From Hydnum rufescens UP504 (taxonomy: Eukaryota > Basidiomycota > Agaricomycetes > Cantharellales > Hydnaceae), in NCBI GenBank assembly GCA_014904985.1, contig MU128950.1:85252-149251 (forward strand): 64,000 nucleotides of DNA. Reading direction: 5' to 3'. Both the position numbers and the translations under genes were made by a program. Below, in pieces: positions 7,827-60,190 of the stretch (position 1 is the first letter of the stretch; each line of letters starts with the position of its first letter). The notes under the pieces are model-generated. The model did no database searches and was not told the origin of the DNA. It saw nothing but the letters and a program-made list of their open reading frames with translations.

Positions 7827-9083
7827 GTGCGAATGACTGAGACAGCAAATTATGTGTCATTGAGTCCTGTGCCGATCTCATGGGGAGAGGCCCACCAGAT
7901 ATTTGGCCACCTGTCAATCTCAGGGCTCAAAACCCTATTCAATTCCAATATGGTAATGGGAATCAAAGTTGATCCCGATTCAAATCAAGATCTTGCGTGT
8001 GAGGCTTGTATCCAAGCCAAATTACATCATCAATCATTTCCCAAATCGAGTGATAACCAAGCCAGGAAACCCGGTGATCTCACACATTCTGACTTGTGGG
8101 GACCAGCAAGAACTGCTTCCATTGGAGGATCATGGTATTATATATCATTCATTGATGACCATTCGAGACAAATCACCATCAAATTCCTTAAGGAAAAGTC
8201 AGAGGCACAGCAACCAATCCAAAACTATGTTGCATGGATTGAAACCCAATTAAATCGACTGCCAAAAGCATTTAAATTTGATAATGGCAGTGAATTTATT
8301 GATCAGGATCTCCAAAAATGGTTAGCTGAAAAAGGAATAGAATCCAAATTTACTGTGCCCCATTCACCCCAACAACATGGAATGGCTGAGTGGCTGAACT
8401 GGACTTTACTCGAGATCATGCGAGCTATGCTAATTGCCAAGGGTTTACCTAAGAACCTATGGGCGGAGGCAGTTTTATATGCCGTGTACATCCAAGCACG
8501 AAGCCCTACAAGGGCATTACATAATAAAACCCCAATGGAGGTATGGACAGGTATAAAGCCAGACATATCTAATCTCCATGAATTTGGATCTGATGTATGG
8601 GTCCTAGATAAGGGCAACCAATCAAAATTAGACCCGAAGGCAAATAAATTCTTTTTTGTCAGCATTGAAGAGGGACTGAGGGCCATTAAGTACTACAACC
8701 CAAAAACTCACAAAATTTTAATTTCCTGGAACTTCAAATTCAATAATAGCCCCAACACCCCAAGCCAGGTCAATCTCGATCTCCCCATCCCTTCCAATAA
8801 TTCTAATTCAGGCTTGGAACATGCTCAAATTGAGGGGGAGCTCCAGGAACCCAAGACTCATGATACCAATTCTCTGCATATTCAAAACAATTCAATATCA
8901 CCCCTTGTAATAATGTGGTCCTCAACTTTGAGGGACCGCAGTATTTGTTGTCATTGGACAAGGCAGATTCAAGGGACCTGTGAACAGAAGGAGGAAAGTA
9001 ATCCAACTGCTCTAAGCACTGGCTTCGCTTTGGATGGGGGAGAAGCAAGAGGAGAGAGGGGAATGGGTAAGGGAAGATGGTAG
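7827..9083 (+). pseudogene. Ty1/copia Pol fragment (integrase)
   Basis: An open frame encodes a copia-type GAG-pre-integrase zinc region (H near 'EAHQIFGHLSISGL', then 'CEACIQAK') followed by an integrase core: first Asp in 'HSDLWGPA', second Asp in 'KFDNGSEF', and the Glu position in 'PHSPQQHGMAEWLNWTLLE'. It continues through 'MEVWTGIKPDISNLHEFGSDVW'. There is no reverse transcriptase or RNase H, and the 5' side begins abruptly at the edge of the F1 LTR, so this is a truncated element. The last 100 codons are unrelated-looking and probably run past the true domain. Catalysis is unlikely because no complete Pol is present. Confidence 0.85.
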
Positions 9084-13499: not shown

Positions 13500-15002
13500 T
13501 CAATCTCCGGGTTGTGATGGTGAGCCCATGTGTGCCCTATGATCAGCTTGGTTTTCCCCCAGTCCGATCACAGAGAACACTACCCGCTCAGAGTGATCAT
13601 TGATTCGGAGGATGACCTCAACCTCTTCACGGACAGACCCCATTTCATTCAGTGTTCCATCAACATTGTAGACTGGGATCGGGCGTGCAAGGGGTCGTAT
13701 GTCTAGACCATTTTCCTTTGCGAAGGTCGGGTCCATGAACATTCCGGTGGCTCCGGAGTCCAGTAGGGCCTTTCCGGCACAGATCGCTCCAGTCCGCGGT
13801 GATTGGATTTTCACCTTGATCTCTGTGGCTCGTCTGGGGTCTTCGGAAAGGAGGCGGATAGAAGGGGGGGGGTTGTAGACAGGGTCAACCTCAGTTGATA
13901 CGCTTTCAGATTCGTCACTCTCATCGTCGGAGAAAAACATGTCATTTCCAACTCCGTATGTACAGTTTTCGAGAGAGGAGAATCTGTTGGTCAGGCAGGA
14001 CGCATCCTTCACTGCTGACCATTGGGAAAATCCTGCGGAGGCGATCCCTGAGCTTCTGAGGCATTCTTCGGAGCTGGGAACAGTTTCCGTAACTCCTCGC
14101 GGATGATTGCTCCAATGTCTTCCGTGGCGCGGATGAATTGTTGTGGCTTCCGCGGGTGGGGGCAGTCACGAGAGATGTGTCCCAACTCTTGACAGTTATA
14201 ACACCGTCGTGCCTCTCGTTTCCGAGTCGAGTCTACATCCATGGGAGTGAATGAAGTCGATGAGGAGGGTGTCGGTGCAGGAGGGAGTGTGGTCGGTCTA
14301 GGAGTGATGGGTGCTGCTGTCCGGGGTTTCTCCGATGGATGTCGGGGGTTTCTCGGAGTGTATGGGGTTGTACCGGATGTGGCTTGTCGGAACCGGAGAT
14401 ATAGGTTATCCAGACGCCGTGCTGTGTCCTGCCATCCTCCGAGTGTCTCCGGCAGATCACTGAGGTGCATTTTTTCCAACAGTCTTTCGTTGAGGCCCTG
14501 CTGATACGCATCAATCAACGCTTCCTCTCCGAATCCGGTTCGTCCTGCCAAGGCGTCAAAGTGCGCGGTGTATTCCTCTGCGGACATCTTCCCTTGTTTC
14601 AGATTCCGGAGTTGGGATCTTGCAGTGAACTCCCGGTCCGGTTCTCCGAAAGCACTTTCAAAGGCAACCAGGAACCCTTCAAAGGTCTCGTATGGATTGT
14701 GGGTTTCCGGATCTAGGAAGGAGGTGGAGAGACTTTCCGCCCATGCTCCGGCAGTTCCATCCTTCATCCAGGAGAGTGTGTACAGGATTTTGTGCAACTC
14801 TGTTGGATAGACTCTAGGTTGGAGGGCAATGTTCAGCCGGACGGAGCGTAGGAAACTCTCTGTTTTCTTCCGATCGCCAGAGAATGGTTCGGGGTCAGCT
14901 CCCTTGGCCTCGCGAGCAGACTGGGTAGGCGGAGGGTGCTGCTGGAGTGTCTGCTGGACTGCAGCTGACACAAAGCCAGCGACATGTGTCCCTTGGTTCC
15001 GC
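13500..15002 (-). pseudogene. F3 gag-protease fragment, rearranged duplicate
   Basis: Minus-strand Gag frame (15002 to 14009) with 'GTHVAGFVSAAVQQTLQQH', a capsid-like part, and the zinc knuckle 'CYNCQELGHISRDC'. It ends TGA and overlaps the pol frame in -1, which runs 14012-13500 with the protease motif 'LLDSGATGMFMDP'. It matches the segment 19046-20560 of the F3 copy just to the right. So it is a second copy of gag-PR only, abruptly bounded by an F2 LTR on the right and by F2 gag-protease sequence on the left. Of the F3 copies in the window, this fragment is the least decayed over gag. Confidence 0.85.
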
Positions 15003-16545
15003 TGTGGAAGATAAAAAACATCCAGTATCAGAAAATGCGAAATCACACCACTTCCAGCCATTGGAGGATCACATGACCAATTACGAAATTAATTACGGCT
15101 ACGCGCGGAAATCGAATTCGTTCTATAACTCCGTCAGTTTTGATCGGAGAGGTACGCCCATATAACTCTTAGAAAGCTACGATTCACACCTTTCGAACGG
15201 TACCAAACACAAGTCGAACGGACCAGAACTGCACTCTCCAGGCCAATTTTACTACCAAGAATCCGGAATTTCCAGTAAAAAACGAATTTCTCCGTCAGTT
15301 CGCATTCAATCCTTTCGGAACAACCGCGCTTAGAAAGATATAAAAAATCCGCATCCGACGGTACTGAGCACGCGAAGAACAGATCAAAACTGAACTCTAC
15401 AGAGCGATATTACTATCAGAATCAACACCCATCAGTAAAAAACGAATTTCTCTGTCAGTTTACACCGGATCTTCTCGGAACCACCGCGCCCAGAAAGCTG
15501 TGAAAATCCGCATCTAATGATACCAAGAACGTCTATTACGGATGCAAACTGCTGTTTCTGCATCGAATCCCATCCTATGCACTTGTTCCCATTATCAACC
15601 AACAACAAAACACCTTAACCACTGGACTATGCTCAAATTAATCTCCAAAACCCGGAGATATCCTTTCATTTCGCCTCCAGAATGCTCCACATGGTCAGTG
15701 ACCACATGCTCCAAGCATTCCACATGCTCAGCAAATTGGTGACATCACCCCCCCTCATGATTCTTTTGTTCTCCTTATGAATGACATCACTATGACATCA
15801 CCCTCATGATTCCTTTTGTTCTCTTTATGAATGACTCAGCTATGACCGCATTATTACATCATCTTGTTATTTTTCTTTTGTTCTCACCTATGACTCACAT
15901 ATGACTCACCCATGGGGGAGTCATATTTCTTAAACACAGCCACCTTCAGAAAGGTATAAAAGCTGGTAGATTTCCTGTACCCCACACAATAATCTCCTCT
16001 CTGGAATCATTACTGTCAACCACTGTCAACTTTTCTGCTTGCCTCTAAAGAACAGTCTATCTATAAGCCATCTGGAGCTAAGTCATCTTCAAGGTTGTTG
16101 AGACAAAGCCACTGGTAGCCCTCTACGCGAATCACAAAGCCAAGGATAGTTGCAGGACCTAAGGTTAGAGTTGCTGGACATCCAAGGAAAAGTAAGCATA
16201 ACGAATACGTATCAGGTTTGAAGAAGAGAAAGAAAACATACTAACAAGACTAACAAGCACTGACCAGTCTAAACCCACAGATATCCGCATTTTGACCAGG
16301 AGAACATAAACAAGAATACACAAATATCAGTAACAACAACACAACACGAACGACTATAAGCTTCTACAAGCATCCCAGACGTATAAGCCTTTCTATAAGC
16401 CATCCACACGACGTATAAAGCCTTCTATAAGCATCCTACACGATATATCATTGACTATACAGCTAGTCATATCCCTCCTATTCTCCACTGAACACCATAC
16501 CACGTCTTACAGAGTGTGATCAACCATTGAAGGAACCAGCCAACG
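15003..16545 (+). mobile_element. F2 LTR (copy b), 3' end truncated
   Basis: Starts TGTGGAAGATAAAAAAC inside F3 gag sequence and follows the F2 LTR to the words ATCAACCATTGAAGG. It then stops short of the usual last 100 bp and runs straight into F3 integrase. The TATAAAA box is at about 15956. It retains many CpG sites that are TpG or CpA in copies a and c, so it looks younger. Confidence 0.8.
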
Positions 16546-19500
16546 ATACGTCTGTCTGGGGTGGAATGCTGTGGAGAAGTTGGTTTTAACTCCAAGGAGT
16601 GAATTGAGTTCCTTCATGAACTTCGAGGTGAATGTGGTGCCCCGATCGCTGATGATGGTCTCTGGAAGGCCATGGTGCCTCCAGACATTGTCTCGGAAAA
16701 GGCGGGTGACTCCGGCAGAGTCCACTGTGGTCGTTGTGGGCATCACATGAATCCGTTTGGAGAGTCGGTCGACGACGATCATCACACTGTCAAATCCATG
16801 CGACTCTGGGAGCTCCGTGATCATGTCCACTGATATGACTTGCCATCAGCGGTCCGGAACCGGATTAGGGTGGAGAGTTCCGGACGGTTTGGATGGGAAG
16901 GTTTTGGTCCGATTGCAGGTGTCACAGGTGGAGACATAGGTTGCGACATACCGTGACATCCCTGGCCACCAGTAGTGGCGAGACACAAGTTCATATGTCT
17001 TCCATCGTCCAGGGTGGCCTGTGGTTGGGGTGTCGTGGTGTTCACGGACTAGGTCATGATGGAGTTTGGAGTCCAGTGGAACATAGACACGTCTGCAGAA
17101 AAGGACCAGAGACCCTTGGAGTTCCCAATCTTTCAGGTGAGCCTTCGGGCCATCTCCGTTTAACTCCTTGATGATCTGGACTACTTTGTCATCAATCTCC
17201 GTGGCCCTTTTGATCCGAGCCATCAAGCTCCGACTAGGTCCTTCCACTGCCACAACCTCTGTGGTGTCTAGGGCATGGGACTGGAAAGCAGTCGGCTTCA
17301 GTAGGACTACATCGGAGTTATCGGAGTCTCCTCGCGGATGGTCTGGGCGCCGTGAAAGAGCATCCGGTTTCCCAGACTGTGATCCGGAGCGGTGCTGGAG
17401 GGTGAAGTTGAACCGGGAAAGGAAAATATTCCAGCGGGCTTGTCTCCGATTCAGCTTCTGTGCAGTCCGGAAGTACTGAAGGTTCTGGTGGTCTGTCAAG
17501 ATCTCAATCGGATGTGGAGAGCCCTCTAGGTAATGTCTCCATGCCTCCAGAGCTCGGATAATGGCCATGAGCTCCTTGTCATAGATGTCATAATTCCTCT
17601 CAGCCTCTGACAGACTTTTCGATAGGAAACCTACTGGGTGCCACTTTCCATCCTCTTGGAGCTGTGAGAGTACTGCTCCGGTTGCATATCCGGAGGCATC
17701 GGCTTCCACTCGGAAGCGTCCGGACTCAGAGGGAAAGACTAGGATCGGTGCGGAGGTGACAAGGGATTTCAGTTTGATGAAGGCATTACGTTCAGCATTG
17801 GCCCATTGGAAGGGAGTGTCCTTCCGGGTGAGATCATTCAAAGGTCTGGCAACCTTAGCGAAATCCTGGATGAACCGGCAGTAGAAGTTGATGAATCCAA
17901 GGAATGACTGCGTCTCCTTCAGGTTCTTGGGTTCTGGCCATTCCATTACACCTGCAACCTTGATAGGGTCCATCTCCACATGATCCGGGGTGAACACCAT
18001 CCCTAGATACTCAATCCGGTCCCGGAAGAACTCACACTTTTCAGGTTTCAAGAAGAGGTTGTTCTCCCTGGAGTGTCTGCAGGATCCCTCGGACACCGTG
18101 GACGTACTCCTCCCGGGTCTTGGCAAAGCTTAGGATGTCATCCAGATACACGATGCACACTCCATTGTCGATCCATTCCCGGAGGACATCATTGATCATG
18201 TTCTGGAAGGTACCCGGAGAGTTGCAAAGTCCAAAGAACATGACCAAGGGTTCAAACAGTCCTCGGTTAGTCCGGAAAGCCGCTTTCCATTCTTCTCCGT
18301 CTGCCATCCGGATATTCTGGAAGCCCCACCGCAAGTCCAGTTTCCCAAACACTTTGGCTCCTCAGAGTCGGTCAATGACATCAGAGATCAGAGGTAAGGG
18401 GTATGCATTCTTGACCGTGATGTCATTGAGTTTCCGGTAGTCCTGGACTAGCCGAAAACCTCCATCTTTTTTCTTCACAAAGAACACTGGGGCAGCCATA
18501 GGGGATTTGGAAGGGCGGATCCGACCGGAGGCCAGGTTTTCCTTCAGGAAGTCATCGAGTTCCTTTTGCTCTGCTGGGGAGAGTGGGAAGAGTTTGGCTG
18601 GGGGAGGCAGCTGGGCTCCCTTGTTAAACTCGATGTGGTGATCCCATGGTTTCCGGCCAGGGAGCTGATCAAAGGAGTCCTTGGAAAACACATCTCGGAA
18701 GTCACGGAATTCCTCTGGGACAAGCTCCTCGAAATGTCTTCACTGGCTCATTTGCTTTGGCTTTCGCAGCCTCTGCCAGTCTCTGGGAAGGGGTGCTCAT
18801 TGCTCGGACAATCTCGGAGTGCTCAGTGTCACTGGGGAAGTAAGCTGCAAAGATGGCATCTCCTTTTTCCAGTGTCAGGGACTCATTAATGTCATCAGCA
18901 TCATCCTCCATAGGAGTGGGAGGTGTCCGGGGTTCTTCCAGTGTCTTCCTGGAGATTCTCCCTCGCCGACGCTCCGCGTTCCGCATCTTCCGGATCACTA
19001 CACGACAGTCAGATGGGCACCGGGTCAGTGTGACTACCCCAGTTGTCCAGTCAATCTCCGGGTTGTGATGGTGAAGCCATGTGTGCCCTATGATCAGCTT
19101 GGTTTTCCCCAGTCCGATCACAGAGAACACTACCCGCTCGGAGTGATCATTGATTCGGAGGATGACCTCAACCTCTTCACGGACAGACCCCATTTCATTC
19201 AGTGTTCCATCAACATTGTAGACTGGGATTGGGCGTGCAAGGGGTCATATGTCTAGACCATTTTCCTTTGCGAAGGTCGGGTCCATGAACATTCCGGTGG
19301 CTCCGGAGTCCAGTAGGGCCTTTCCGGCACAGATCGCTCCAGTCCTGCAGTGATTGGATTTTCACCTTGATCTCTGTGGCTCGTCTGGGGTCTTCGGAAA
19401 GGAGGCGGATAGAAGGGGGAGGGTTGTAGACAGGGTCAACCTCAGTTGATACGCTTTCAGATTCGTCACTCTCATCGTCGGAGAAAAACATGTCATTTCC

Positions 19501-30111: not shown

Positions 30112-30210
30112 TCTTATTTACTGCACTCTAGGGTTTTTCAATCATGTCTGGGTAGCCTTATCTCTATTTTCCCCTGGTCCCCTGCTGCAGTATGGAGGAC
30201 CCCCCACACC

Positions 30211-30690
30211 AATTTGGCTGAAAATTGGTGGAAACATTCTACCCATCCCTCTCATCATTCCCTTAAAATTTCACCCAATTCCCATGCACAGATCTTGTGT
30301 AATTCACACTGCAATCTTTCAATTCCAAGCCTTCCAGTCACTTTAGGGGATATAATATTCCTGGCACCAATTTGGCTGAAAATTCGTGAAAACTTTCCAG
30401 ATACTATTGTCATCATCTCCTTAAAATTTCAGCCAATTCCTATGCATAGACCTTGTGCAATGGACAGGGGAAGGTTTCTATAACACACCTTTCAATCACT
30501 TTGGGGGATGCAAGTTCCCCCTCACTAATTCAGTTGAAAATTGGTGGAAATTTTCTACATACTATCCTCATCATCTCCCAGAAATTTCAACAAATTCAAA
30601 TGCATGGATCTTGTGTAATGGATGAGGCAAGGTCTCTAGGACAAGCCTTCCCATCACTTCAGGGCTGGCACTTTGTGTTCTTTGCTCTTC
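30211..30690. repeat. Three degenerate tandem repeats of about 155 bp
   Basis: Units start near 30211, 30365 and 30524. Each begins CCAATTTGGCTGAAAATT or a variant, continues with ATCATC/TCATTC..AAATTTCA and ATGCAyAGAyCTTGTG, and ends in CACTTyrGGG. Similarity drops from unit 1 to unit 3. Confidence 0.75.
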
Positions 30691-31640: not shown

Positions 31641-32040
31641 TCACACATGGGGCCCCATTGCACCCAAACAAGGCCCCAGAATGAGCCCTTAACCAAACCA
31701 GTCAGCCATAATTGTATATCTAGTTAGGCCCTTTTGCCTTGCTTTTATTCAGTCTAAGAGTGGGCTTTTAGGTGGGGCCCCCTGGGGTCCACTGGGTGAT
31801 TTCATGGCATGAGACAAGGGACCCCATGGAGCCCCTAGGGGCCCCTCACCTTAGACTGGGACTTAGAGATTCTCAGACTTGCAGGACAGTGGGTCATATG
31901 GGCTTATCAGGGATAATATGCTCCGTCTATAATTATTTATTTATTATCACTATATTATACATATGTACCCCCAGTTTCATTCAGTAGTCCCATGTTTTGT
32001 TCTTATTTACTTGTTTATTTATTTATTTATTTAAAAAACA
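31641..32040. other. Flank of the hairpin array
   Basis: No gene seen. It contains GGGGCCCCCTGG near 31775, the same word that begins the sequence after the last right-hand intron at 37193 (mirrored), plus ATTT-rich sequence at 32010-32035. Confidence 0.3.
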
Positions 32041-32155
32041 ACTATCTAATAGCACCACACCCACTTGGGTGGGTGTGTGGTACTAGGGGTGTGCCTTGGC
32101 ACTTCACCATTGGGTGTGGGTCATGGGTTGTGTTTGCCATGCTTCAATTTGGATC

Positions 32156-32250
32156 CTAGTTAGTAAAAAAACTAAGTGATGCAAAAGGAGCAACTTGCAC
32201 TGCTCCTTTTGCATTGTTGCAGATATAGAAATTTAAAAAAAAATGGCTTG
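32156..32250 (-). other. Array intron L1 (decayed donor)
   Basis: The acceptor and branch point read ACTAACTAG on minus. Type A hairpin at 32181-32212 has perfect 12-bp arms (GCAAAAGGAGCA/TGCTCCTTTTGC). No good donor follows the B hairpin at 32254-32285, so this module looks dead. B hairpin of the next unit out is at 32053-32080. Confidence 0.55.
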
Positions 32251-32420
32251 TAGTACCACACACCCACCAAAGTGGGTATGTGGTACTGTTTTGTACTGTG
32301 GTCATGCAGTTTGTACTCAGTACTGGGGCTGGTCATCATCTAGGGGGTTTGCAGGTTTTGTTTGGGGGGTGCATGTTTGTATGGTGGGGTCTCAGGTCTT
32401 GATTGAGGGCTCAAAAGATA

Positions 32421-32526
32421 CTTATGATAATAAGTAATAAGTTAGTAAAAAAAGAAAAACCACACAAAAGGAGCAGCACATGCTGCTCCTTTTGTGCAGT
32501 CACACTAATAGAGGGCAAATACTTAC
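32421..32526 (-). other. Array intron L2, 106 nt
   Basis: Donor GTAAGTATTT, branch ACTAAC, acceptor ATCATAAG. Type A hairpin at 32463-32496 with 16-bp perfect arms around CA. Exon B hairpin at 32537-32561. Confidence 0.75.
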
Positions 32527-32641
32527 TTTAAAAATTACCACACCTGCTGAAGTGGGTGTGGGGTTCATCCCAGGCTTCTGTGGCCTCACGTTGTGTTCTG
32601 TCATTCTCAGGTTTCATATTGGGGGTGGGGGCAGATGAAAC

Positions 32642-32736
32642 CTATGGTACAGAATAATATGTTAGTAAAAAAAAAAGAAAAGCTACACCACAGGAGCAGC
32701 ATATGCTGCTCCTTTGGTGCAATTGTATTTATTTAC
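32642..32736 (-). other. Array intron L3, 95 nt
   Basis: Donor GTAAAT, branch ACTAAC, acceptor ACCATAG. Type A hairpin at 32686-32719, one mismatch. Exon B hairpin at 32744-32772. Confidence 0.75.
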
Positions 32737-32944
32737 CTTAATTACCACATACCTGCTTTGGTGGGTGTGTGGTTCATCTTGGGGTTCTGCAGTCTTGCAT
32801 TGTGGGTCCCTGTTCCTGGGTTTTGTCTGGTGGGTGTCTCTTGGCTGGTTGTTGTTGGCGGGCTTCATTTGGCATTTGCTTGGCTGGTCGTGGTGTCATT
32901 TCCTAGGGGGGGGGGTTCATGTGGCAGGTGGTTGAGGTGATAAC

Positions 32945-33050
32945 CTAGAATAAATGTAAGGTGTTAGTTAAAAATTAAAATTACAATGTATGCAAAAAGA
33001 GCAGCAAGAGCTGCTCTTTTTGCATCATTGGGGGGTGCACTATTACATAC
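32945..33050 (-). other. Array intron L4, 106 nt
   Basis: Donor GTATGT, branch ACTAAC, acceptor TTCTAG. Type A hairpin at 32991-33024, perfect 15-bp arms. Exon B hairpin at 33062-33089, perfect 12-bp arms. Confidence 0.85.
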
Positions 33051-33178
33051 CTTGTATAGAACCACACACCTGCTACTGCAGGTGTGTGGCTCTTCTCTTC
33101 ATGTGGTGCATCATCATTTGCAGGGGTGTTGTTGTTCTGGGGGGGGCTTGCTTTGTGGGTCTTCATTTGCAATGATAC

Positions 33179-33272
33179 CTAGAATAAAAAATCATTAGTT
33201 AAAAAATTAAAAGCAACACAAAAAGAGCAGCTTTTGCTGCTCTTTTTGTGTCATTGGGGGTACATTACATAC
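33179..33272 (-). other. Array intron L5, 94 nt
   Basis: Donor GTATGT, branch ACTAAT, acceptor TTCTAG. Type A hairpin at 33216-33251, perfect 16-bp arms. B hairpin at 33287-33314 pairs a CCTGC arm with a GTGGG arm, a mixed state between the two B forms. Confidence 0.85.
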
Positions 33273-33413
33273 CAACAAGTATAGAACCACACACCTGCTA
33301 CTGTGGGTGTGTGGTTTGTCTCTTCATGTGGCATGTCATCATTTGCAGACCCTGTTTGCAGGCATGTTATCATTCTGGGGGGTTGCTTCATGGGTCTTCA
33401 TTTGTGACAATAC

Positions 33414-33522
33414 CTATAATATTATATTATATTATTAGTTAGAAAATGCAAAGTGATGCAAAAAGAGCAGCCAAAGCTGCTCTTGTTGCATGGCTGCATC
33501 TATTGGGGGGGAGGAGACTCAC
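33414..33522 (-). other. Array intron L6, 109 nt
   Basis: Donor GTGAGT, branch CTAACTAAT, acceptor TTATAG. Type A hairpin at 33456-33491, one mismatch. B hairpin at 33533-33558, perfect with no loop. Confidence 0.85.
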
Positions 33523-33605
33523 CTTAAATAGTACCACACCCACTGCAGTGGGTGTGGTTCCTGGGCCCACTCATTGGGCAGCCTGTCATTTGTTTTGGTT
33601 TTGAT

Positions 33606-33710
33606 CTGGAGTAATAAAGGCTATGTTAGTACAAAAATTCACAGCCATGCAAAAAGAGTAGCTTGTGCTACTCTTTTGCACTATTGTATTGACTGAGACA
33701 AAACTCTTAC
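33606..33710 (-). other. Array intron L7, 105 nt, nearest the centre
   Basis: Donor GTAAGA, branch ACTAAC, acceptor CTCCAG. Type A hairpin at 33648-33680 carries the compensated pair GAGTAGC/GCTACTC instead of GAGCAGC/GCTGCTC. B hairpin at 33718-33745. Confidence 0.8.
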
Positions 33711-33847
33711 CTTATGACCATACACCCACATCAGTGGGTGTGTGGTTGTGTGGTCATGGTTGTGTGGTTGTGGTTGTGTGCTGTTGCTGTTGTGTTGTGG
33801 TCATGCAGTCACATTTCTGTTGCTGGGTGTGGCTGCATAGTTGTGAA

Positions 33848-34491
33848 ATTCAATGCTGGCAATTGCTGATATTCAAGAAGCACCCAAGTGCTGGTGCTGC
33901 AAGCACAGTACACAATAGTACCAAGCATGTATATTTAAAAATAAATACTATATAATAAACATTTGTCCACAAAAACCTGAAGAAGATGATGATAATGAGT
34001 CAGAGCTCAATGAGATGGCTAATTGCAGAGTGGATTGGGCCACTTCTACACATCAGAATTGGCCCAAATTTAAATATAGTAGTGTTATATATACACTCTA
34101 CATGAGCAATTGATTATCTCAGATGATTCTTGCATTTTTCAATTTTTCATGCCTTCAATTCCCTAAATAGGGAATTGAAGGTGTCAAAAATTGCAAAATG
34201 CAAGAATCATCTGAGATAATCAATCACCCATGTAGAGTGTATATATAACACTACTATATTGAAATTTGGGCCAATTCTGATGTGTAGAAGTGGCCCAATC
34301 CACTCTGCAATTAGCCATCTCATGCCTTATTGAGCTCTGACTCATTATCATTGTCTTCTTCAGGTTTTCCTGGACAAATATTTATTATATAGTATTTATT
34401 TTAAATATACATGCTTGGTACTATTGTGTACTGTGCTTGCAGTGCCAGCACTTGGGGCACTTCTTGAATATTGGCAATTGCCAGTGTTGAA
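33848..34491. repeat. Central palindrome of about 640 bp
   Basis: Arms of about 320 bp are inverted copies with a few substitutions and small indels, meeting at CCCTAAATAGGG (34161-34172). Shared landmarks include TGAGTCAGAGCTCAAT, GGATTGGGCCACTTCTACAC, GTGTTATATATACACTC and TTGGTACTATTGTGTACTG. Beyond the arms the sequences diverge but both lead into the first B hairpin and intron of each array. A shared bidirectional promoter inside the palindrome would explain the layout; TATATATA is present in both arms. Confidence 0.85.
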
Positions 34492-34590
34492 TCTGCATCT
34501 TGCTTCCTGTCTCCACAACCACAACAAGCAGCCACCCAAAAAGGCAAGCACATGACCACACACCCACTGCTGCAGGTGTGTGGTCACAAG

Positions 34591-34695
34591 GTGAGTCCTT
34601 TTTTCCAGTAGATACAATGGCACAAAAGAGCAGTGAAAGCTGCTCTTTTTGTGCTGCTTTGGAATTTTTTACTAATGTGCCTTTATTTATTTTAG
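34591..34695 (+). other. Array intron R1, 105 nt
   Basis: Donor GTGAGT, branch ACTAAT, acceptor TTTTAG. Type A hairpin at 34620-34654. Exon B hairpin at 34554-34585. Confidence 0.85.
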
Positions 34696-34902
34696 ATTGA
34701 CGCCTCACCCAATGCATGATGAGAGCCCAAATGGGAACATGACCCATGGGAACACGACACAGCAGCGCAACATATGGCAATGCAACACAGCAATGTGCCA
34801 ACAATGCGATATACAGTGCTGCACCAAACAAGGATGTGACCATGTCAAATGATGTGCCAGGAATCACACACCTGCCACAGCAGGTGTGTGGTTCCATATC
34901 AG

Positions 34903-35008
34903 GTGAGTTCCTCCCCCCCACTACCTACAACCATGCAAAAAGAGCAGCGAAAGCTGCTCTTTTTGCATGTTGTTTAACTCTTAACTAATATATAATCTTA
35001 TATTATAG
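34903..35008 (+). other. Array intron R2, 106 nt
   Basis: Donor GTGAGT, branch ACTAAT, acceptor TTATAG. Type A hairpin at 34932-34969 has perfect 17-bp arms capped by GAAA. B hairpin at 34865-34890, perfect. The exon before it (34696-34902) is open in the frame of HTPATAGVW except for one TGA, and splices in phase into a fully open next exon. Confidence 0.85.
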
Positions 35009-35212
35009 GTCATCACTTCCTGCACAAACAAATACCCATGCAAGAACCCCCATAACCCCACCCATCAACACCCAAACAACATGGTACAGGGACAAAATGA
35101 ATGACCCAACAAATGAACAAACAAATGATGACACACACAGGAGGCCACAGAGAAGACAAGCAGGGAAACAGAGAGCCACACACCTGCTGTGGCAGGTGTG
35201 TGGCTACATAAG

Positions 35213-35314
35213 GTATGTATATTTTTAATAGCTATGAATGCACAAAGAGAGCAGCAGTCACTGCTCTCTTTGCATGACTTTTGATTTTAACTAACACATT
35301 GTTCTCTGTTCTAG
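35213..35314 (+). other. Array intron R3, 102 nt
   Basis: Donor GTATGT, branch ACTAAC, acceptor TTCTAG. Type A hairpin at 35240-35273 with compensated arms CAAAGAGAGCAG/CTGCTCTCTTTG. B hairpin at 35175-35204, perfect 13-bp arms. Confidence 0.85.
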
Positions 35315-35339
35315 GTTGGGGTGTCCAACCCCAATGTGC

Positions 35340-36686
35340 TGTAAGTGGGAAACAGGAGTTGAATCCAGCTACAGTCTGCAAAATGGAAATGAGGACAAAG
35401 AGAGGGGATCACAGGAATCTGAACGTTAAGGTCCAAGGGGAGGGAGGTCTTTGGATGGGTGAAATTGTCCTGTATAGACTGAGCCTATCCAGACAATAAA
35501 TGAAGGAGTTGTTAAATTGGGGAATCACACTCTAGGTCCTCTTGAGAGCCTATCAAAAGTGTGATTAGTGGGGGTTGAGTTGTGGAATTTACCCTAACAC
35601 CACCAGCAGTTCAACTAGCTTTTCAACTGGGGATGGGGGGAAAGATGATAGAAATTTTCATCTCCTGCACCTAATATACATTAAAAAAAAATGCCATGGT
35701 AACCGGCAGAAAGGTGGGATTAAGGCGAAAATGATAAAAAAGAAATCAAGTCAAAAGCTTCAAAAATGAAGGAGATATTCCAATATCACATCAGAATAGG
35801 GGAATATGGCTTAACCAAGGTATTCCGCCTCTCCTACTGAACAAAATCCCTTGGGAAAAGGTGGAACTGGTCGTCCTAAATGTACCCTCCATCAGATATG
35901 GGGTGCCGGAACCATAATTGCCTTTAGTAATTAGAAAAAGCGGAGGTAAAAGTGAAATGAGACATGGGGAGACTAAATTACAGGAAGCCGAGTTCTAATC
36001 TGCTCATTTTTCCCTTGCTACCATTTGATGTGGATGTTCAGCGTCTTTCCAGGCGTGGTTGTAGTTAATGAATTGGATAAAAACTGGCGGAGATATTTGA
36101 AAAATACTGAAGGATAGTGTGAAATACAAGGTAAAATCGACCTGGAGAGTGCAATTCGCATCCGATAGATGCGTGTGTGGTACCGTTGGATAGTTATTGA
36201 TCACAGCTTTCTGGGAGATATCTTGCCGAATCGAACTGAGCAAAACTGAGGGAGATATTCCACATTTACTGCTTTAGAGTGTTGCAATAGCCCCTATTTA
36301 ACATGTGACAAGTCCATGTGAAGTGGAGTTGCGTTACATAATCCCAGGTCAAATACCGCCCTTGAGGCAATTGGATATGCTGATAGTGATACAATAGGTG
36401 GACAAAAGTAAGCAAGTTGAATTGCTGGAGCCTTGTTGAACTGGCTTGAAATAAGTACAATTTGGATGGCCTGTTGAAGTGCCATAGACAGACAAGTAAT
36501 TCTCTCATATACAGGGTGGAGGAAAAGTAAAAGGACCACCATCCCTGGAATGTGGAATTCATACTGTTTGACAGCCAAGGGAATAACAAGTGTGGATATG
36601 AGACAAATGTAGAAATATGGATTTGTTTGAGGAGGTAGTTGGGTCCAGATGAGGTATGTACATAGTGGGATTTTATCCCTCCAACA
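35340..36686. mobile_element. Solo LTR F1 (copy b) inside an array exon
   Basis: TGTAAGTGGGAAACAG...CCCTCCAACA flanked by GTGC (35336-35339 and 36687-36690). It is collinear with copy a at 6462-7826 with scattered differences. It splits the exon between introns R3 and R4; removing it leaves a 114-bp exon. Confidence 0.8.
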
Positions 36687-36779
36687 GTGCAAACACACAC
36701 ACCCACCCAAATCAACCCATCAACCCACCAACCAGCCCAGTACCCCACACCCCCTGCAGCAGGTGTGGGGTACTACCAG

Positions 36780-36892
36780 GTAAGTGTTATTTATTTATTT
36801 ATTTATTTATTCTTGTGGTGAAAAAAGAGCAGTGTAAGCTGCTCTTTTTGCACTGCATTAATGTCCAACTAATCTATTATTTATTTATCTAG
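36780..36892 (+). other. Array intron R4, 113 nt
   Basis: Donor GTAAGT, branch ACTAAT, acceptor ATCTAG, with an ATTT microsatellite after the donor. Type A hairpin at 36819-36852. B hairpin at 36740-36773 with compensated arms GTACCCCACACC/GGTGTGGGGTAC. Confidence 0.85.
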
Positions 36893-37013
36893 ATCTTGTA
36901 GCAGAACCCATGCAAACCCCCAACCACAAACCCACTGAATGACACACAATGAACAAAACCTGTGATGAAACCCACAAATGAAACTGGTGAATGGCACCCC
37001 AACTGGGGTGGAG

Positions 37014-37140
37014 GTAAGTATCCCCTTTAGGTAAGTATTTTTTTCTTTTAGCTATAATTGTGAAAGAAGAGCAGCCTCTGGCTGCTCTTCTTGGGATGGG
37101 GTGAGCTGATGGATGTATATACTAATATAATAACAATAAC

Positions 37141-37171
<31 letters not shown>

Positions 37172-37192
37172 TAATAAATAATGATTTGGCAG
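37014..37192 (+). other. Array intron R5, 179 nt
   Basis: Donor GTAAGT (a second GTAAGT follows at 37031), branch ACTAAT at 37121, acceptor TTGGCAG. Type A hairpin at 37064-37092 with compensated arms AAGAAGAGC/GCTCTTCTT. Length is inflated by an AAT repeat. B hairpin reduced to CACCCC/GGGGTG at 36993-37011. Confidence 0.75.
37136..37175 (+). repeat. AAT microsatellite
   Basis: About ten AAT units plus interruptions, between branch point and acceptor of intron R5. Confidence 0.85.
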
Positions 37193-37358
37193 GGGCCCCC
37201 TGGTGTAAGCATCTAATAAATGCAAGGCTCATGATATCTAATATGATGCAGAAAAGTGGCTGACCAGCCTGCCCTTAACACTCTTTCATATTTTCTGCAT
37301 CACTTGGGGCCCAAATGAGGCCCCACTATGTGACCTTCAGACCTTTCTCTCAGCCAAG

Positions 37359-54616: not shown

Positions 54617-55293
54617 TGTCAGGGTTTGTCCCTCACTCCGGTCCACTCCAGTCCACTCTGGTCCACTCTGGTCCACTCCGGATCACTCCAGTCCTTGTCC
54701 ACCCACCTCCAGTCCAGTTCTCCGCTTAGTTCCTTTGCCCAAGTCCACTTTGCTTCCGGCTTGATTCTGGTTTGACTCCAATCCAACCCTATCTTGGTTT
54801 CATTTCCCTTTCATTTCCCATTGCTTCTGGTTTGCCCCCTGGCCAAGTTCCTGTTCCTGTTCCTGTTCCCGTCCCCCTTGTAACCACCGACAGTTTAGCG
54901 ATCACTCCCCTGTAGTATAGTCATCATGTATAAGTAGTCCAAGAGCAAAGTCCAGAGACCCCAGCTTTGGTCTCTCAGGATTTCCGCTGTTACTCCAGAC
55001 TACAGGTCAGCCTTCATGTATTCCGTATTCATATTACATAATCTCAGGATTTCCGCTGTTACTCCGGACTACAGCTCCGAGTATTATCCAGTCGACTCCA
55101 CGAGCTTAAGGACTGCTGTGCTCATTTCCGCCTAGTCCCTTCTGGGCTGCTGGACCACTCCTCCGACATCCCTAACCTCCTTATCTCATTCTTGCCCGGA
55201 TTCTTGCGGACTTAGCCGGACTTACACCAGACTTAGCCAGAATTATTTGTGTTTACATTTGTTTGGTGCCCTTGTCGCAGCGTGGCCCTGACA
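54617..55293 (+). mobile_element. F3 5' LTR, 677 bp
   Basis: TGTCAGGG...CCCTGACA. It includes repeated CACTCCGGTC-like decamers at 54635-54690, absent or shorter in the minus copy, the promoter at 54929, and the predicted R start at 54963. Confidence 0.92.
54929..54973 (+). promoter_or_regulatory. F3 TATA box and predicted transcript start
   Basis: TATAAGTA at 54929, then AGCTTTGGTCT at 54963-54973, 34 nt downstream. The start is assigned because these 11 bases are exactly complementary to the primer-binding site at 55296, as the self-priming mechanism requires of the RNA 5' end. Confidence 0.75.
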
Positions 55294-55295
55294 GA

Positions 55296-55306
55296 AGACC
55301 AAAGCT
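55296..55306 (+). other. F3 self-primer binding site
   Basis: AGACCAAAGCT, two bases (GA) after the LTR end, is the exact reverse complement of AGCTTTGGTCT at 54963-54973. Complementarity stops after 11 bp. No tRNA-type TGG start is present. This spacing and length match the Tf1 self-priming arrangement. Confidence 0.8.
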
Positions 55307-55371
55307 CTCTCATGAGCCCACCATCTGGATTGCTTAGTATCGCCGATTTCGCTCCCACTCCTTGTTCCAAA

Positions 55372-56469
55372 ATGTCCGATGGTGCTCCAGTAGCCATTAC
55401 TGCCAACCACCTCCAACACCTCCTCACCCAACTCCAACAACAAAATGCCGCCCTCTGTGAGGAGCTGGATGACATGCGGAACCAAGGGACACATGTTGCT
55501 GGCTTTGTGTCAGCTGCAGTCCAGCAGACACTCCAGCAGCACCCTCCGCCTACCCAGTCTGCTCGCGAGGCCAAGGGAGCTGACCCCGAACCATTCTCTG
55601 GCGATCGGAAGAAAATGGAGAGTTTCCTATGCTCCATCTGGCTGAACATTGCCCTCCAACCTAGAGTCTATCCAACAGAGTTGCACAAAATCCTGTACAC
55701 ACTCTCCTGGATGAAGGATGGAACTGCCGGAGCATGGGCGGAAAGTCTCTCCACCTCCTTCCTAGATCCGGAAACCCACAATCCATACGAGACCTTTGAA
55801 GGGTTCCTGGTTGCCTTTGAAAGCGCTTTCAGAGAACCAGACCGGGAGTTCACTGCACGATCCCAACTCCAGAATCTGAAACAAGGGAAGATGTCCATGG
55901 AGGAATACACCACGCACTTTGATGCCTTGGCAGGACGAACCAGATTTGGAGAGGAAGCATTGATTGATGTGTATCAGCGGGGCCTCAACGAAAGACTGTT
56001 GGAAAAAATGCACCTCAGTGATCTGCCAGAGACACTTGGAGGATGGCAGGACACAGCACGGCATCTGGATAACCTATCTCTCCGGTTCCGACAAGCCACA
56101 TCCGGTACAACCCCATACACTCCGAGAAACCCCCGGACATCCATGGAGAAACCCCAGACAGCAGCACCTGTCACTCCTAGACTGACCACACTCCCTCCTG
56201 CACTGACACCCTCCTCATTGACTTCATTCACTCCCATGGATGTAGACTCAACTCGGAAATGAGAGGCATGATGGTGTTATAACTGTCAAGAGTTGGGACA
56301 CATCTCTCATGACTGTCCCCACCCGCAGAAGCCACAACAATTCATCCGCGCCATGGAAGACATTGGAGCAATCATCCGCGAGGAGTTATGGAAACTATTC
56401 CCAGCTCCGAAGAATGCCTCAGAAGCTCAGGGATCGCCTCCGCAGGATTTTCCCAACAGTCAGCAGTGA
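55372..56469 (+). pseudogene. F3 gag
   Basis: ATG at 55372 ('MSDGAPVAITANHLQHLLTQ') is chosen over the in-frame ATG at 55312 because the minus copy has ACG at that place. Gln/Leu-rich coiled coil (residues 5-35), a capsid-like helical domain (about 60-240), a Pro/Thr-rich linker, then the CCHC knuckle 'CYNCQELGHISHDC' at 56275-56316. TGA stops at 56260 and 56269 interrupt it just before the knuckle. The natural stop is TGA at 56467-56469, overlapping pol in the -1 frame. Gag packages element RNA in cytoplasmic particles; this copy is dead. Confidence 0.85.
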
Positions 56470-59400
56470 AGGATGCGTCCTGCCTGACCAACAGACTCTC
56501 CTCTCTCGAAAACTGTACAAACGGAGTTGGAAATGACATGTTTTTCTCTGATGATGAGAGTGACGAATCTGAAAGCATATCAACTGAGGTTGACCCTGTC
56601 TACAACCCCCCCCCTTCTATCCGCCTCCTTTCCGAAGACCCCAGATGAGCCACAGAGATCAAAGTGAAAATCCAATCACCACGGACTGGAGCGATCTGTG
56701 CTGGAAAGGCCCTACTGGACTCTGGAGCCACCAGAATGTTCATGGACCCGACCTTTGCAAAGGAAAATGGTCTAGACATATGACCCCTTGCATGCCTGAT
56801 CCCAGTCTACAATGTTGATGGAACACTGAATGAAATGGGGTCTGTCCGTGAAGAGGTTGAGGTCATCCTCCAAATCAATGATCACTCCGAGCGGGTAGTG
56901 TTCTCTGTGATCGGACTGGGGAAAACCAAGCTGATCATAGGGCACACATGGCTTCACCATCACAACCCAGAGATTGACTGGACAACTGGGGTAGTCACAC
57001 TGACCCGGTGCCCATCTGACTGTCATGTAGTGATCTGGAAGATGCGGAACGCAGAGCATCAGCGAGGGAGAATCTCCAGGAAGACACTGGAAGAACCCCG
57101 GACACCTCCCACTCCTATGGAGGATGATGCTGACGACATTAATGAGTCCCTGACACTGGAAAAAGGAGATGCCATCTTTGCAGCTTACTTCCCCAGTGAC
57201 ACTGAGCACTCTGAGATTGTCCAAGCAACGAGCACCCCTTCCCAGAGGCTGGCAGAGGCTGTGAAAGCCAAAGCAGATGAGCCAGTGAAGACATTCGAGG
57301 AGCTTGTCCCAGAGGAATTCCGTGACTTCCGAGATGTGTTTTCCAAGGACTCCTTTGATCAGCTCCCTGGCCAGAAACCATGGGATCACCTCATCGAGTT
57401 TAACAAGGGAGCCCAGCTGCCTCCCCCAGCCAAACTCTTCCCACTCTCCCCAGCAGAGCAAAAGGAACTCGATGACTTCCTGAAGGAAAACCTGGCCTCT
57501 GGTTGGATCCACCCTTCCAAATCCCCTATGGCTGCCCCAGTGTTCTTTGTGAAGAAAAAAGTTGGAGGTTTTTGGCTAGTCCAGGACTACTGGAAACTCA
57601 ATGACATCACGGTCAAGAATGCATACCCTTACCTCTGATCTCTGACGTCATTGACCGACTCCGAGGAGCCAAAGTATTTGGGAAACTGGACTTGCAGTGG
57701 GGCTTCCAGAATATCCGGATGGCAGACAGAGAAGAATGGAAAGCGGCTTTCCGGACTAACCGAGGACTGTTTGAACCCTTGGTCATGTTCTTTGGACTTT
57801 GCAACTCTCCGGGTACCTTCCAGAACATGATCAATGATGTCTTCCAGGAATGGATCGACAATGGAGTGTGCATCGTGTATCTGGATGACATCCTAAGCTT
57901 TGCCAAGACCCAGGAGGAGTACGTCCATGGTGTCTGAGGGATCCTGCAGACACTCTGGGAGAACAACCTCTTCTTGAAACCCGAGAAGTGTGAGTTCTTC
58001 TGGGACCGGATTGAGTATCTAGGGATGGTGTTCACCCCGGATCATGTGGAGATGGACCCTATCAAGGTTGCAGGTGTAATGGAATGGCCGGAACCCAAGA
58101 ACCTGAAGGAGACGCAGTCATTCCTTGGATTCATCAACTTCTACCACCGGTTCATCCAGGATTTCGCTAAGGTTGCCAGACCTTTCAATGATCTCACCCG
58201 GAAGGACACCCCCTTCCAATGGGCCGATGCCGAACGTAATGCCTTCATCAAACTGAAATCCCTTGTCACCTCCGCACTGATCCTAGTCTTTCCTTCTGAG
58301 TCTGGATGCTTCTGAGTGGAAGCCGATGCCTCCAGATATGCAACCGGAGCAGTACTCTCACAGCTTCAAGAGGATGGAAAGTGGCACCCAGTAGGTTTCC
58401 TATCGAAAAGTCTGTCAGAGGCTGAGAGGAATTATGACATCTATGACAAGGAGCTCATGGCCATTATCCGAGCTCTGGAGGCATGGAGACATTACCTAGA
58501 GGGCTCTCCACATCCGATTGAGATCTTGACGGACCACCAGAACCTTCAGTACTTCTGGACTGCACAGAAGCTGAATTGGAGACAAGCCTGCTGGAATATT
58601 TTCCTTTCCCGGTTCAACTTCACCCTCCAGCACCACTCCGGATCACAGTCTGGGAAACCGGATGCTCTTTCATGGCGCCCAGACCATCCGCAAGGAGACT
58701 CCGATAACTCCGATGTAGTCCTACTGAAGCCGACTGCTTTCCAGTCCTGTGCCCTAGACACCACAGAGGTTGTGGCAGTGGAAGGACCTAGTCGGAGCTT
58801 GATGGCTCGGATCAAAAGGGCCACGGAGATTGATGACAAAGTAGTCCAGATCATCAAGGAGTTAAACAGAGATGGCCCGAAGGCTCACCTGAAAGATTGG
58901 GAACTCCAAGGGTCTCTGGTCCTTTTCTGTGGACATGTCTATGTTCCACTGGACTCCAAACTCCGTCATGACCTAGTCCGTGAACACCACGACACCCCAA
59001 CCACAGGCCACCCTGGACAATGGAAGACATACGAACTTGTGTCTCGCCACTACTGGTGGCCAGGGATGTCACGGTATGTCGCAACCTATGTCTCCACCTG
59101 TGACACCTGCAATCAGACCAAAACCTTCCCATCCAAACTGTCCAGAACTCTCCACCCTAATCCAGTTCCAGACTGCCGATGGCAAGTCATATCAGTGGAC
59201 ATGATCATGGAGCTCCCAGAGTCACATGGATTTGACAGTGTGATGATCGTCATCGACCGACTCTCCAAACAGATTCATGTGATGCCCACAATGACCACAG
59301 TGGACTCCACTGGAGTCGCCCGCCTTTTCCGAGACAATGTCTGGAGGCACCATGGCCTTCCAGAGACCATCATCAGCGATTGGGGCACCACATTCACCTC

Positions 59401-60190
59401 GAAGTTCATGAAGGAACTCAATTCACTCCTTGGAGTTAAAACCAACTTCTCCACAGCATTCCACCCCCAGACAGACAGACAGACGGAGCAAGTCAATCAG
59501 GAGATCGAGCAGTACCTCCGGATCTTTGTCAACCACAGACAAAATGATTGGGCAGACTGGCTCCCTATGGCGGAGTTTGCATACAATAACTGGATTCACT
59601 CCTCCACCTGGGAAACCCCATTCCGCCTTGACTCTGGCCAAGATCCTCGCCTCAGTACTGAACCAATCCGCCCTGGAGTTGTTGAAGCAGCCATGGACTT
59701 TGTCACACGGATGCAGAAAACCTCTGAGGAAGCCCAGTCTGCTCTCTGCCAAGCAGCCGAGGATGTGGCTCGTCACTATGATGCACACTGGACAGAAGCC
59801 CCAGAGTATGCAGTTGGAGACTCAGTATGGCTGGATGCTCACAACATTTCCATTGACCGCCCAGCCCAGAAACTCTTGGACAAGTGGTTAGGCCCATACA
59901 AAGTGGACAAGGTGATCTCCTGCTCTGCTATCTGGCTCAAACTTCCCCCCTCCATGTGAGTCCACCCGGTGTTCCATGTCTCGAAACTCCGCCCTTTCTG
60001 GCCTGACCCAATTATGGATTGTGTTGCACATCCTCCGCCTCCTCCTATCCTCCATGTGGTGAAGAGAGTATGAGGTGGAATGGATTGAAAACTCCCACTA
60101 TTTCCCGAGCCGACTCCAGTACTTGGTGAAATGGAAAGGCTACCCACCCTCAGAGAAACCAATGGCTTCCAGAGACCAATCTAGGTAATG
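56468..60190 (+). pseudogene. F3 pol: protease, RT, RNase H, integrase, chromodomain
   Basis: Protease at about 56700-56960 ('LLDSGATRMFMD', DSG intact). RT at about 57430-57960 with 'FGLCNSPGTFQNMINDVF' and YLDD in 'CIVYLDDILSFAKT'. RNase H at 58316-58690 ('YDKELMAIIRALEAW'). Integrase has an HHCC zinc region ('HHDTPTTGH', 'CDTCNQTK'), core Asp in 'VDMIMELPESH', second Asp in 'SDWGTTFTSKF', and Glu within 'TEQVNQEIEQ'. Chromodomain at 60065-60165. Defects are TGA at 56646, 56779, 57935, 58313 and 59957, and a one-base loss near 57628. Compared with the minus copy, most Arg are Trp, Gln, Cys or His, which is CpG decay. Confidence 0.9.
60065..60170 (+). pseudogene. Chromodomain at the integrase C-terminus
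   Basis: Translates as 'YEVEWIENSHYFPSRLQYLV' followed by 'KWKGYPPSE'. The W-I-x-x-S-x(6)-L-Q-Y-L-V-K-W-K-G-Y pattern, with two of the aromatic-cage positions, is the integrase chromodomain of chromoviruses. It directs integration to histone-H3K9-methylated chromatin in the family. Confidence 0.8.

Follow-up and report, generated by a model that had tools for sequence, protein, structure and literature searches.

In the genome assembly of Hydnum rufescens UP504 (GCA_014904985.1), about 5 kb of contig MU128950.1 is filled with palindromes of two kinds, here called A and B, that alternate with signals resembling those of spliceosomal introns. What kind of gene or repeat is built in this way? 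The question was addressed in a window of 64,000 nucleotides (nt), the whole stretch of DNA analysed, which covers positions 85,252 to 149,251 of the forward strand of that contig (C42:85252-149251 in our numbering of the 539 contigs, 63.2 Mb in total); coordinates below are those of the window unless another locus is named. The palindromes lie in a non-autonomous DNA transposon. We estimate at about 0.72 the probability that this transposon makes two divergent, spliced and structured noncoding RNAs, in which the A hairpin would serve as a zipper stem. The observations counted as established for this estimate are the element ends and their target-site duplications (TSDs), strand-specific splice signals, covarying stems, strand-specific tetraloops and the lack of coding constraint.

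The unit was delimited by its ends. An earlier note on this DNA had placed it at 32041-37200; judged by an end scan and the TSD, the transposon extends from 31694 to 37271 (5578 bp, including a nested insert of 1.35 kb), with inverted ends CAAACCAGTCAGCCA and CAGGCTGGTCAGCCA and the exact 8-bp TSD CCCTTAAC, read in the sequence at 31686-31693 and 37272-37279 on the plus strand. The left terminal inverted repeat (TIR) occupies 31694-31715 on the plus strand, in a form (GTCAGCCATAATTGTATATCTA) that recurs among the genome matches listed, and the right TIR occupies 37227-37271 on the minus strand. For comparison, 20 stretches were fetched around A hairpins of contigs C1-C6, giving 21 loci together with the window; the genome outside the fetched stretches is described through counts and listed places. 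Related hairpin arrays were present in the 20 fetched stretches, all of which gave one or more alignments of over 150 nt with the window element (a single one in L021, L023 and L029). A scan with the shared end motifs detected facing ends in five of the 21 loci (the window, L018, L027, L033 and L025) and no facing pair in the other 16. Four of the five had an exact 8-bp TSD (CCCTTAAC in the window, GGTTACCA in L018, GCTATGTG in L027 and GCCATTCC in L033). These four elements were 4.7-6.2 kb long and bore an imperfect TIR around GTCAGYCA at both ends; the TIRs and the constant TSD length expected of Class II elements were thus both found.

Genome-wide counts gave the size of the family. One end form had 476 exact copies (control 0), and a second, overlapping end set had 532 (control 31). 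There were 5,993 B cores and 1,263 exact A hairpins, with 0 matches to the backward-read pattern for each. The window copy is a member of a large non-autonomous DNA transposon family, and the approximately 6,000 B cores exclude a local satellite, the outcome to which the earlier note had said its finding might be reduced. In L020, two element ends (5945 and 6385) were bordered by the same exon sequence (ATGAAAAC and GTTTTCAT), which suggests that elements nest in each other's exons. In L021 (2849-5529) and L030 (2903-4748), modules adjoined a similar-looking open frame without a Pfam match, lying after the frame in L021 and before it in L030; this layout perhaps represents a related element that is partly coding, or an insertion into a multicopy gene.

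Within the window copy, two divergent module arrays flank a central palindrome of approximately 650 nt (33848-34492), whose arm pieces, identified as inverted-repeat pairs, are 84-97% complementary around a centre near 34166. Since the arrays diverge from this palindrome, the left half is read on the minus strand. The modules that had been described before as keeping a fixed order through 5 kb therefore form two runs, with seven introns on the minus strand (33710-32179) and five on the plus strand (34591-37192) diverging from about 34166. The series is also interrupted: an unrelated 1.35-kb repeat that is not part of the element (35340-36686, plus strand; TG..CA ends, flanking GTGC) lies between the third and fourth plus-strand modules. 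Each palindrome arm contains a candidate TATA box, picked out by sequence reading and arm comparison: TATATATAA at 34240-34248 on the plus strand for a rightward transcript, and TATATATA at 34086-34093 on the minus strand for a leftward one. TATATAT or TATATAA stood at this position in 16 of 24 arms. A 33-nt centre motif, found by genome motif counting, occupies 34266-34298 in the right arm (plus strand) and 34035-34067 in the left arm (minus strand). It had 552 genome copies at up to three mismatches (control 0), many of them, among the matches listed, as facing pairs 229-232 nt apart, which, for this mismatch limit, implies no fewer than 276 centres or half-centres.

The modules were read in the order B hairpin, donor, A hairpin, branch point, acceptor. 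Between 32056 and 37092 there were 12 A hairpins (palindromes GCAAAAAGAGCAGC/GCTGCTCTTTTTGC and variants) and 12 B hairpins (CACACC..GGTGTG), or 13 B hairpins counting a weak one at 36995-37010; seven of the A hairpins (32179-33677) lie in minus-strand introns and five (34624-37092) in plus-strand introns. In the left array, intron L1 spans 33606-33710 (A 33652-33677; B 33717-33746, in the exon), L2 spans 33414-33522 (A 33456-33491; B 33531-33560), L3 spans 33179-33272 (A 33216-33251; B 33285-33316) and L4 spans 32945-33050 (A 32990-33025; B 33058-33093). The donors of L3 and L4, both GTATGT, were assigned by hand, the automated pick for L3 being a pseudo-donor in the B arm. Intron L5 (32642-32736; A 32686-32719; B 32744-32773) has a weakened donor, GTAAAT, likewise assigned by hand at 32736; L6 can be followed from its donor to the A hairpin (32463-32526; B 32538-32561), after which the acceptor has been lost; and in L7 the donor has decayed before the A hairpin at 32179-32214 (B 32252-32287). 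The hairpin scan added an eighth B on this strand (32056-32077), without an A. The right array comprises R1 (34591-34695; B 34553-34586; A 34624-34649), R2 (34903-35008; B 34860-34895; A 34930-34971), R3 (35213-35314; B 35174-35205; A 35243-35272; donor GTATGT by hand), R4 (36780-36892; B 36739-36774; A 36818-36853) and R5 (37014-37192, with a second donor at 37032; weak B 36995-37010; A 37064-37092). The acceptor of R5 abuts GGGGCCCC, and a similar end layout was seen in L027 and L035. Twelve introns with good signals had been claimed; the 12 A hairpins are there, and manual reading found donor, branch point and acceptor all kept in nine, the other three (L5, L6 and L7) being degraded.

The hairpins were far in excess of expectation. 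In the element without its nested insert, 23 hairpins of at least 12 pairs were counted, whereas 40 dinucleotide shuffles averaged 0.2 and never exceeded 1; a comparison with shuffled sequence had been proposed in the earlier note. The other 58.4 kb of the window contained eight. By the same hairpin scan, the module array occupies most of the window element and is not confined to the end regions.

The strand and position of the splice signals were examined in all 197 B-A pairs of the 20 loci and the window, oriented by the B-then-A order alone and with no splice filter. The strong donor GGTRAGT occurred between B and A in 92 of 197 pairs in sense and in none in antisense (mononucleotide-shuffled mean 0.7), and ACTAAY followed by YAG occurred after A in 135 in sense and none in antisense (shuffled mean 5.0). 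At wrong positions on the sense strand, GGTRAGT was found in 0/197 pairs before B and 0/197 after A, and ACTAAY-YAG before B in 7/197 (shuffled 3.8). A looser donor form gave 147 matches in sense and 10 in antisense (shuffled 22). Genome-wide, a strong donor preceded an exact A arm by 6-36 nt in 758 cases, and 571 B cores with intact CpG sites were followed by a strong donor; the backward-read control was 0 in both cases. The order B, donor, A, branch point, acceptor proposed from the window thus holds in the window copy and is strand-specific across the 197 pairs, with the strong forms in sense only, as expected of a spliced noncoding RNA gene. The median intron was 105 nt (170 modules kept by a splice filter) and the median exon 165 nt (n = 111). 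On the spliced strand, T made up 12% of exon bodies and 45% of introns.

Stems and loops were compared among modules, with hairpins assigned to A or B by short words. (In L029, about 18 short hairpins at 7017-8871 that the script assigned to A apparently form a separate repetitive stretch.) Both stems covary. The eighth pair from the A loop was A-T in 115, G-C in 29, C-G in 4 and non-Watson-Crick in 4 of 152 distinct hairpins, and pair 10 of B was A-T in 118, C-G in 35 and non-Watson-Crick in 6 of 159. GNRA and UNCG are classical stable RNA tetraloops. Among 178 distinct A tetraloops, GNRA was found 64 times in sense and twice in antisense, and among 169 B loops, UNCG was found 27 times in sense and 8 in antisense; for A loops with a strong donor upstream, the genome-wide count was 464 GNRA versus 27 of its reverse complement, counts that are not independent events because loops and modules share ancestry. 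The R2 module, from B to acceptor, had a predicted fold of -68.8 kcal/mol (z-score -11.5, 200 shuffles) in which donor and branch point lie outside both hairpins.

For conservation scoring, 194 of the 197 pairs were entered, three being too close to a locus end, and the six groups of homologous modules with at least four members (65 modules) were scored. Identity was 0.87-0.95 in stems, donor, branch point and acceptor, the value for stems being biased upward because modules were picked by having hairpins, and 0.55-0.75 in exon bodies, next-exon starts, other intron stretches, the gap between B and donor, and loops. Splice signals played no role in choosing the pairs, and their columns were set on the group consensus. 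The remaining 129 of 194 modules fell outside the six groups at 70% identity; among the modules listed, these kept the same element order.

These data bear on the idea that the modules are a passive relic, that is, a once-captured multi-exon gene or RNA carried along without function. The window copy is heavily CpG-decayed, with a CpG observed/expected ratio of 0.12 (insert included), and three of its twelve introns have a lost or weakened signal, as a relic would. Against decay without function, conservation is concentrated in signals and stems, modules too diverged to group still keep their order (among those listed), and the L018 copy has a CpG ratio of 0.99; we consider a relic quite unlikely. 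The copy at C1:370210-375518 is an example of a young, CpG-rich element.

CpG decay also accounts for the two classes of B palindrome that had been listed before, which are not distinct designs. The commonest B core was CCCGC/GCGGG (33 of 111 scored in the copies read), and CCTGC/GCAGG and CCCAC/GTGGG are its fully decayed, still paired CpG-decay forms. At the CpG sites of B, 21 double changes were matched and 18 unmatched, so near to equality that the two classes reflect CpG decay and not compensation.

Do the exons encode a protein? A repeat-protein gene, in which the B hairpins would encode a repeated peptide, had been among the roles suggested, and 56 of 111 exons were indeed open in at least one frame. 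The exon lengths were spread evenly over the three classes modulo 3 (35/39/37, n = 111) and sense frames were less open than antisense frames (75/333 versus 110/333), neither of which fits such a gene. The longest stop-free stretches of the four complete elements measured 161-211 amino acids (aa), and a Pfam scan of six of the longest gave nothing above the cut-off except for the 211-aa stretch of L027 (1461-2093). This one matches HTH_Tnp_Tc3_2 (E = 1.8e-15) and is a piece of a Tc1/mariner-type transposase, evidently nested in the element by insertion. Exon phases, frame openness and Pfam scan therefore lend no support to a repeat protein, and we regard it as very improbable; the 111 exons look noncoding, with no conserved reading frame. 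In most of 24 arms the first exon contained a similar stretch, about 27 codons long, that begins with ATG. A small conserved exon-1 protein was considered on this basis and rejected, the codon-position signal being weak (0.11/0.13/0.17) and gaps common. Scans of the window returned no Rfam match at gathering thresholds and no tRNA. The suggestion of a long noncoding gene fits the strand-specific signals and noncoding-looking exons and is probably right.

Another suggestion was an introner-like module, in which the exon-intron unit or the intron itself would be mobile and would seed host genes. Introners likewise consist of many similar introns multiplied by mobile DNA, and some carry TIRs and TSDs (PMC9860276); here, too, similar introns with good splice sites number in the hundreds to thousands. 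The modules nevertheless stood in arrays wherever they were checked. All 46 exact A places in the fetched stretches (among 50 listed) had at least four other A- or B-type hairpins within 2.5 kb, and on contig C1 the nearest neighbour of the 52 listed B places was at a median of 260 nt and at most 1,087 nt, so within 1.1 kb in every case. No solitary module was seen among these 46 A and 52 B places, host genes not having been scanned systematically for single modules. Moreover, the TIRs and TSDs are those of the whole element: they bound elements of 4.7-6.2 kb that contain many introns, and element ends and intron ends do not coincide. In contrast to introners, the introns multiply inside a larger element with its own exons, and single host-gene introns of this kind were not seen, although no systematic search was made. 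The fungal introner cases named in the sections of PMC9860276 drawn on here are from Pezizomycotina (ascomycetes) alone. An introner-like module is accordingly given hardly any credence.

The preferred reading, a transposon with two divergent spliced RNAs, suggests the following course of events. Transcription would start at the TATA-like boxes on each palindrome arm and run outward, and the transcripts would cross exons of approximately 165 nt split by spliceosomal introns of approximately 105 nt (in the window copy, seven to the left and five to the right), the RNAs presumably being made and spliced. The median distance from donor to branch point was 81 nt, or 43 nt with the A hairpin left out. 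The A hairpin may thus act as a zipper stem: with about 38 nt looped out, the branch point would come to lie 43 nt from the donor instead of 81. In yeast, the RPS17B intron has a zipper stem between donor and branch point that reduces their effective distance (PMC2536676). The A stem resembles it in position and presumed effect, and a covarying donor-branch stem with this shortening is present at the sequence level; it differs in being a strong and local hairpin, frequently capped by a GNRA loop, in recurring from intron to intron of a transposon, and in having a partner hairpin at the exon end. The B hairpin, one per exon, would be a stable mark of the exon end retained in the mature RNA. The earlier proposal that RNA folds bring splice sites together is supported by the strand-specific splice signals, the covarying stems and the GNRA and UNCG loops on the spliced strand, and may well be correct. 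As a guess, the pay-off would be that a strong, efficiently spliced RNA keeps the promoter active and avoids host silencing. In Cryptococcus, removal of introns lowers mRNA, and intron number acts cumulatively (PMC3744415); an array of introns could therefore keep the RNA abundant and the element similar to a host gene.

The element itself appears to depend on a transposase from elsewhere. Transposases of the KDZ (Kyakuja-Dileera-Zisupton) superfamily are numerous in the genome (at least 154 matches, with 150 of 584 candidates scored). None was found in the six scanned stretches of the four complete elements, and neither the window nor any of the 20 fetched stretches contained a KDZ place from among the matches listed. 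Among the matches listed, a facing GTCAGYCA-type end lay within 3.5 kb at 6 of 26 KDZ places on contigs C1-C41, in three of the six at 2633-2651 bp downstream of the KDZ domain start. At C26:395837-395908, only 9 nt separated a KDZ-facing end from a B hairpin and its donor, an arrangement suggestive of KDZ insertion at a module. TSDs of 8 bp are reported for Zisupton and for one Dileera element, as they usually are for hAT elements, and two Kyakuja families have CA..TG ends with 7-bp duplications and no TIRs (PMC12730594). The element shares the 8-bp TSD with Zisupton and the one Dileera element and the CA..TG ends with the two Kyakuja families; it differs in that no internal transposase was found and in its palindrome and noncoding exon-intron arrays, which the sections of PMC12730594 drawn on here do not mention for KDZ elements. 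From these sequence features the moving transposase is most likely, though not firmly, of a KDZ (Zisupton-like) kind, and the element would at most be a non-autonomous relative of KDZ transposons.

A hAT source was considered and, on eight sampled places, rejected. The termini of hAT elements start with CA or CAG, as do those of the element. The 8-bp TSD is another likeness (PMC12730594). The genome has 90 places with a hAT domain. In eight of them about 1.2 kb on the downstream side was read, and neither a right-hand end of the present kind nor A/B hairpin motifs were seen; there was one weak left-type end match, in L040, and the domain match in L041 is partial, so that its true end may be further on. 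Foldback or long-palindrome transposons have a long internal inverted repeat, which the element has as well. It differs from them in having short TIRs, a separate central palindrome and outward-reading arrays. Among the titles and abstract openings of open-licence papers, no published element of like architecture was found; within that literature, the chassis of a non-autonomous TIR transposon is known, and the cargo of hairpin-marked noncoding exon-intron arrays is without a published match.

Several results weigh against our reading, in addition to the shared ancestry of the loops and modules and the selection bias in the stem scores noted above. L025, with a left end at 1504 and right ends at 5973 and 7611, had no matching duplication. 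The loosest branch and acceptor form (YTRAY then YAG) was frequent on the antisense strand too (169 sense, 88 antisense, shuffled 54). A small peptide from the 27-codon stretch of the first exon is possible. Among the matches listed, an end faced away at 2 of the 26 KDZ places, and no element carrying both modules and a KDZ gene was present among those read. In R2, donor and branch point each lie partly inside a small, weak predicted stem. Folding of A was barely stabler in sense (-25.7 versus -25.1), and that of B was equal on both strands. Finally, stem mismatches had no clear strand preference, with G-U versus A-C counts of 76 versus 55 in A and 72 versus 72 in B (128 modules), and 29 versus 20 outside CpG-type contexts; with the two types about equal, the stems alone cannot tell action as RNA from action as DNA.

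This last result suits the view that the hairpins act in DNA, as palindromic sites set in arrays that a transposase or another protein would recognise, comparable to subterminal repeats, with the splice-like signals incidental. The arrays are inverted about the centre, as subterminal sites often are, and the central arms are near-perfect palindromes. Sites in DNA would leave unexplained, however, why strong donors, branch points and acceptors stand at fixed positions on one strand and are conserved like the stems, why GNRA and UNCG loops prefer that same strand, and why the array in the window fills most of the element rather than its ends alone. We hold this view to be unlikely and favour spliced RNAs as the form in which the hairpins would act.

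More tentatively, and with doubts that prevail over support, the element may be a selfish gene of a new kind, with no protein as its product but the divergent, heavily spliced RNA pair, the RNA or the act of splicing itself being the survival factor. Each mature RNA would bear stable hairpins in a row at its exon ends, and every intron cut out would contain a hairpin of GNRA type. This could work, for example, through mimicry of intron-rich host genes, by which genome surveillance would be escaped, or through titration of a hairpin-binding splicing or silencing protein.

Other repeats were noted in the window. The 1.35-kb repeat nested in the element occurs a second time at 6462-7826; it has TG..CA ends and the look of a solo long terminal repeat, and it recurs in other fetched loci. 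Its 4-bp flanking repeats were exact at 35340 (GTGC) and in L016 (GCGT) and inexact in the other three copies with flanks read. Ty3-type gag and RNase H/integrase matches were found at 14012-18126 (minus strand) and 55249-59956 (plus strand); the order of the minus-strand pair does not fit a single element, so these are probably fragments. A protein encoded in the flanks had its best match at 92%, and its best matches among named fungi, at 57-64%, were to Tephrocybe, Sphagnurus, Cyclocybe, Amanita, Athelia and Tricholoma, which are mushroom-forming fungi or their kin. An open frame at 7827-9083 with integrase-core and gag-pre-integrase matches is Ty1/copia-like, and a tandem array of a 158-bp unit (2.9 copies) lies at 30201-30664.

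If the modules are spliced as predicted, the approximately 6,000 natural variants of one module design, in which stems, loops and signals vary jointly, would constitute a comparative experiment on how splicing depends on RNA structure in a basidiomycete. In mammals, HUSH reportedly silences intronless mobile elements. If our reading is true, the element would be a transposon whose investment goes into introns and not into protein, and it would bear on whether introns mark transcripts as 'self'.

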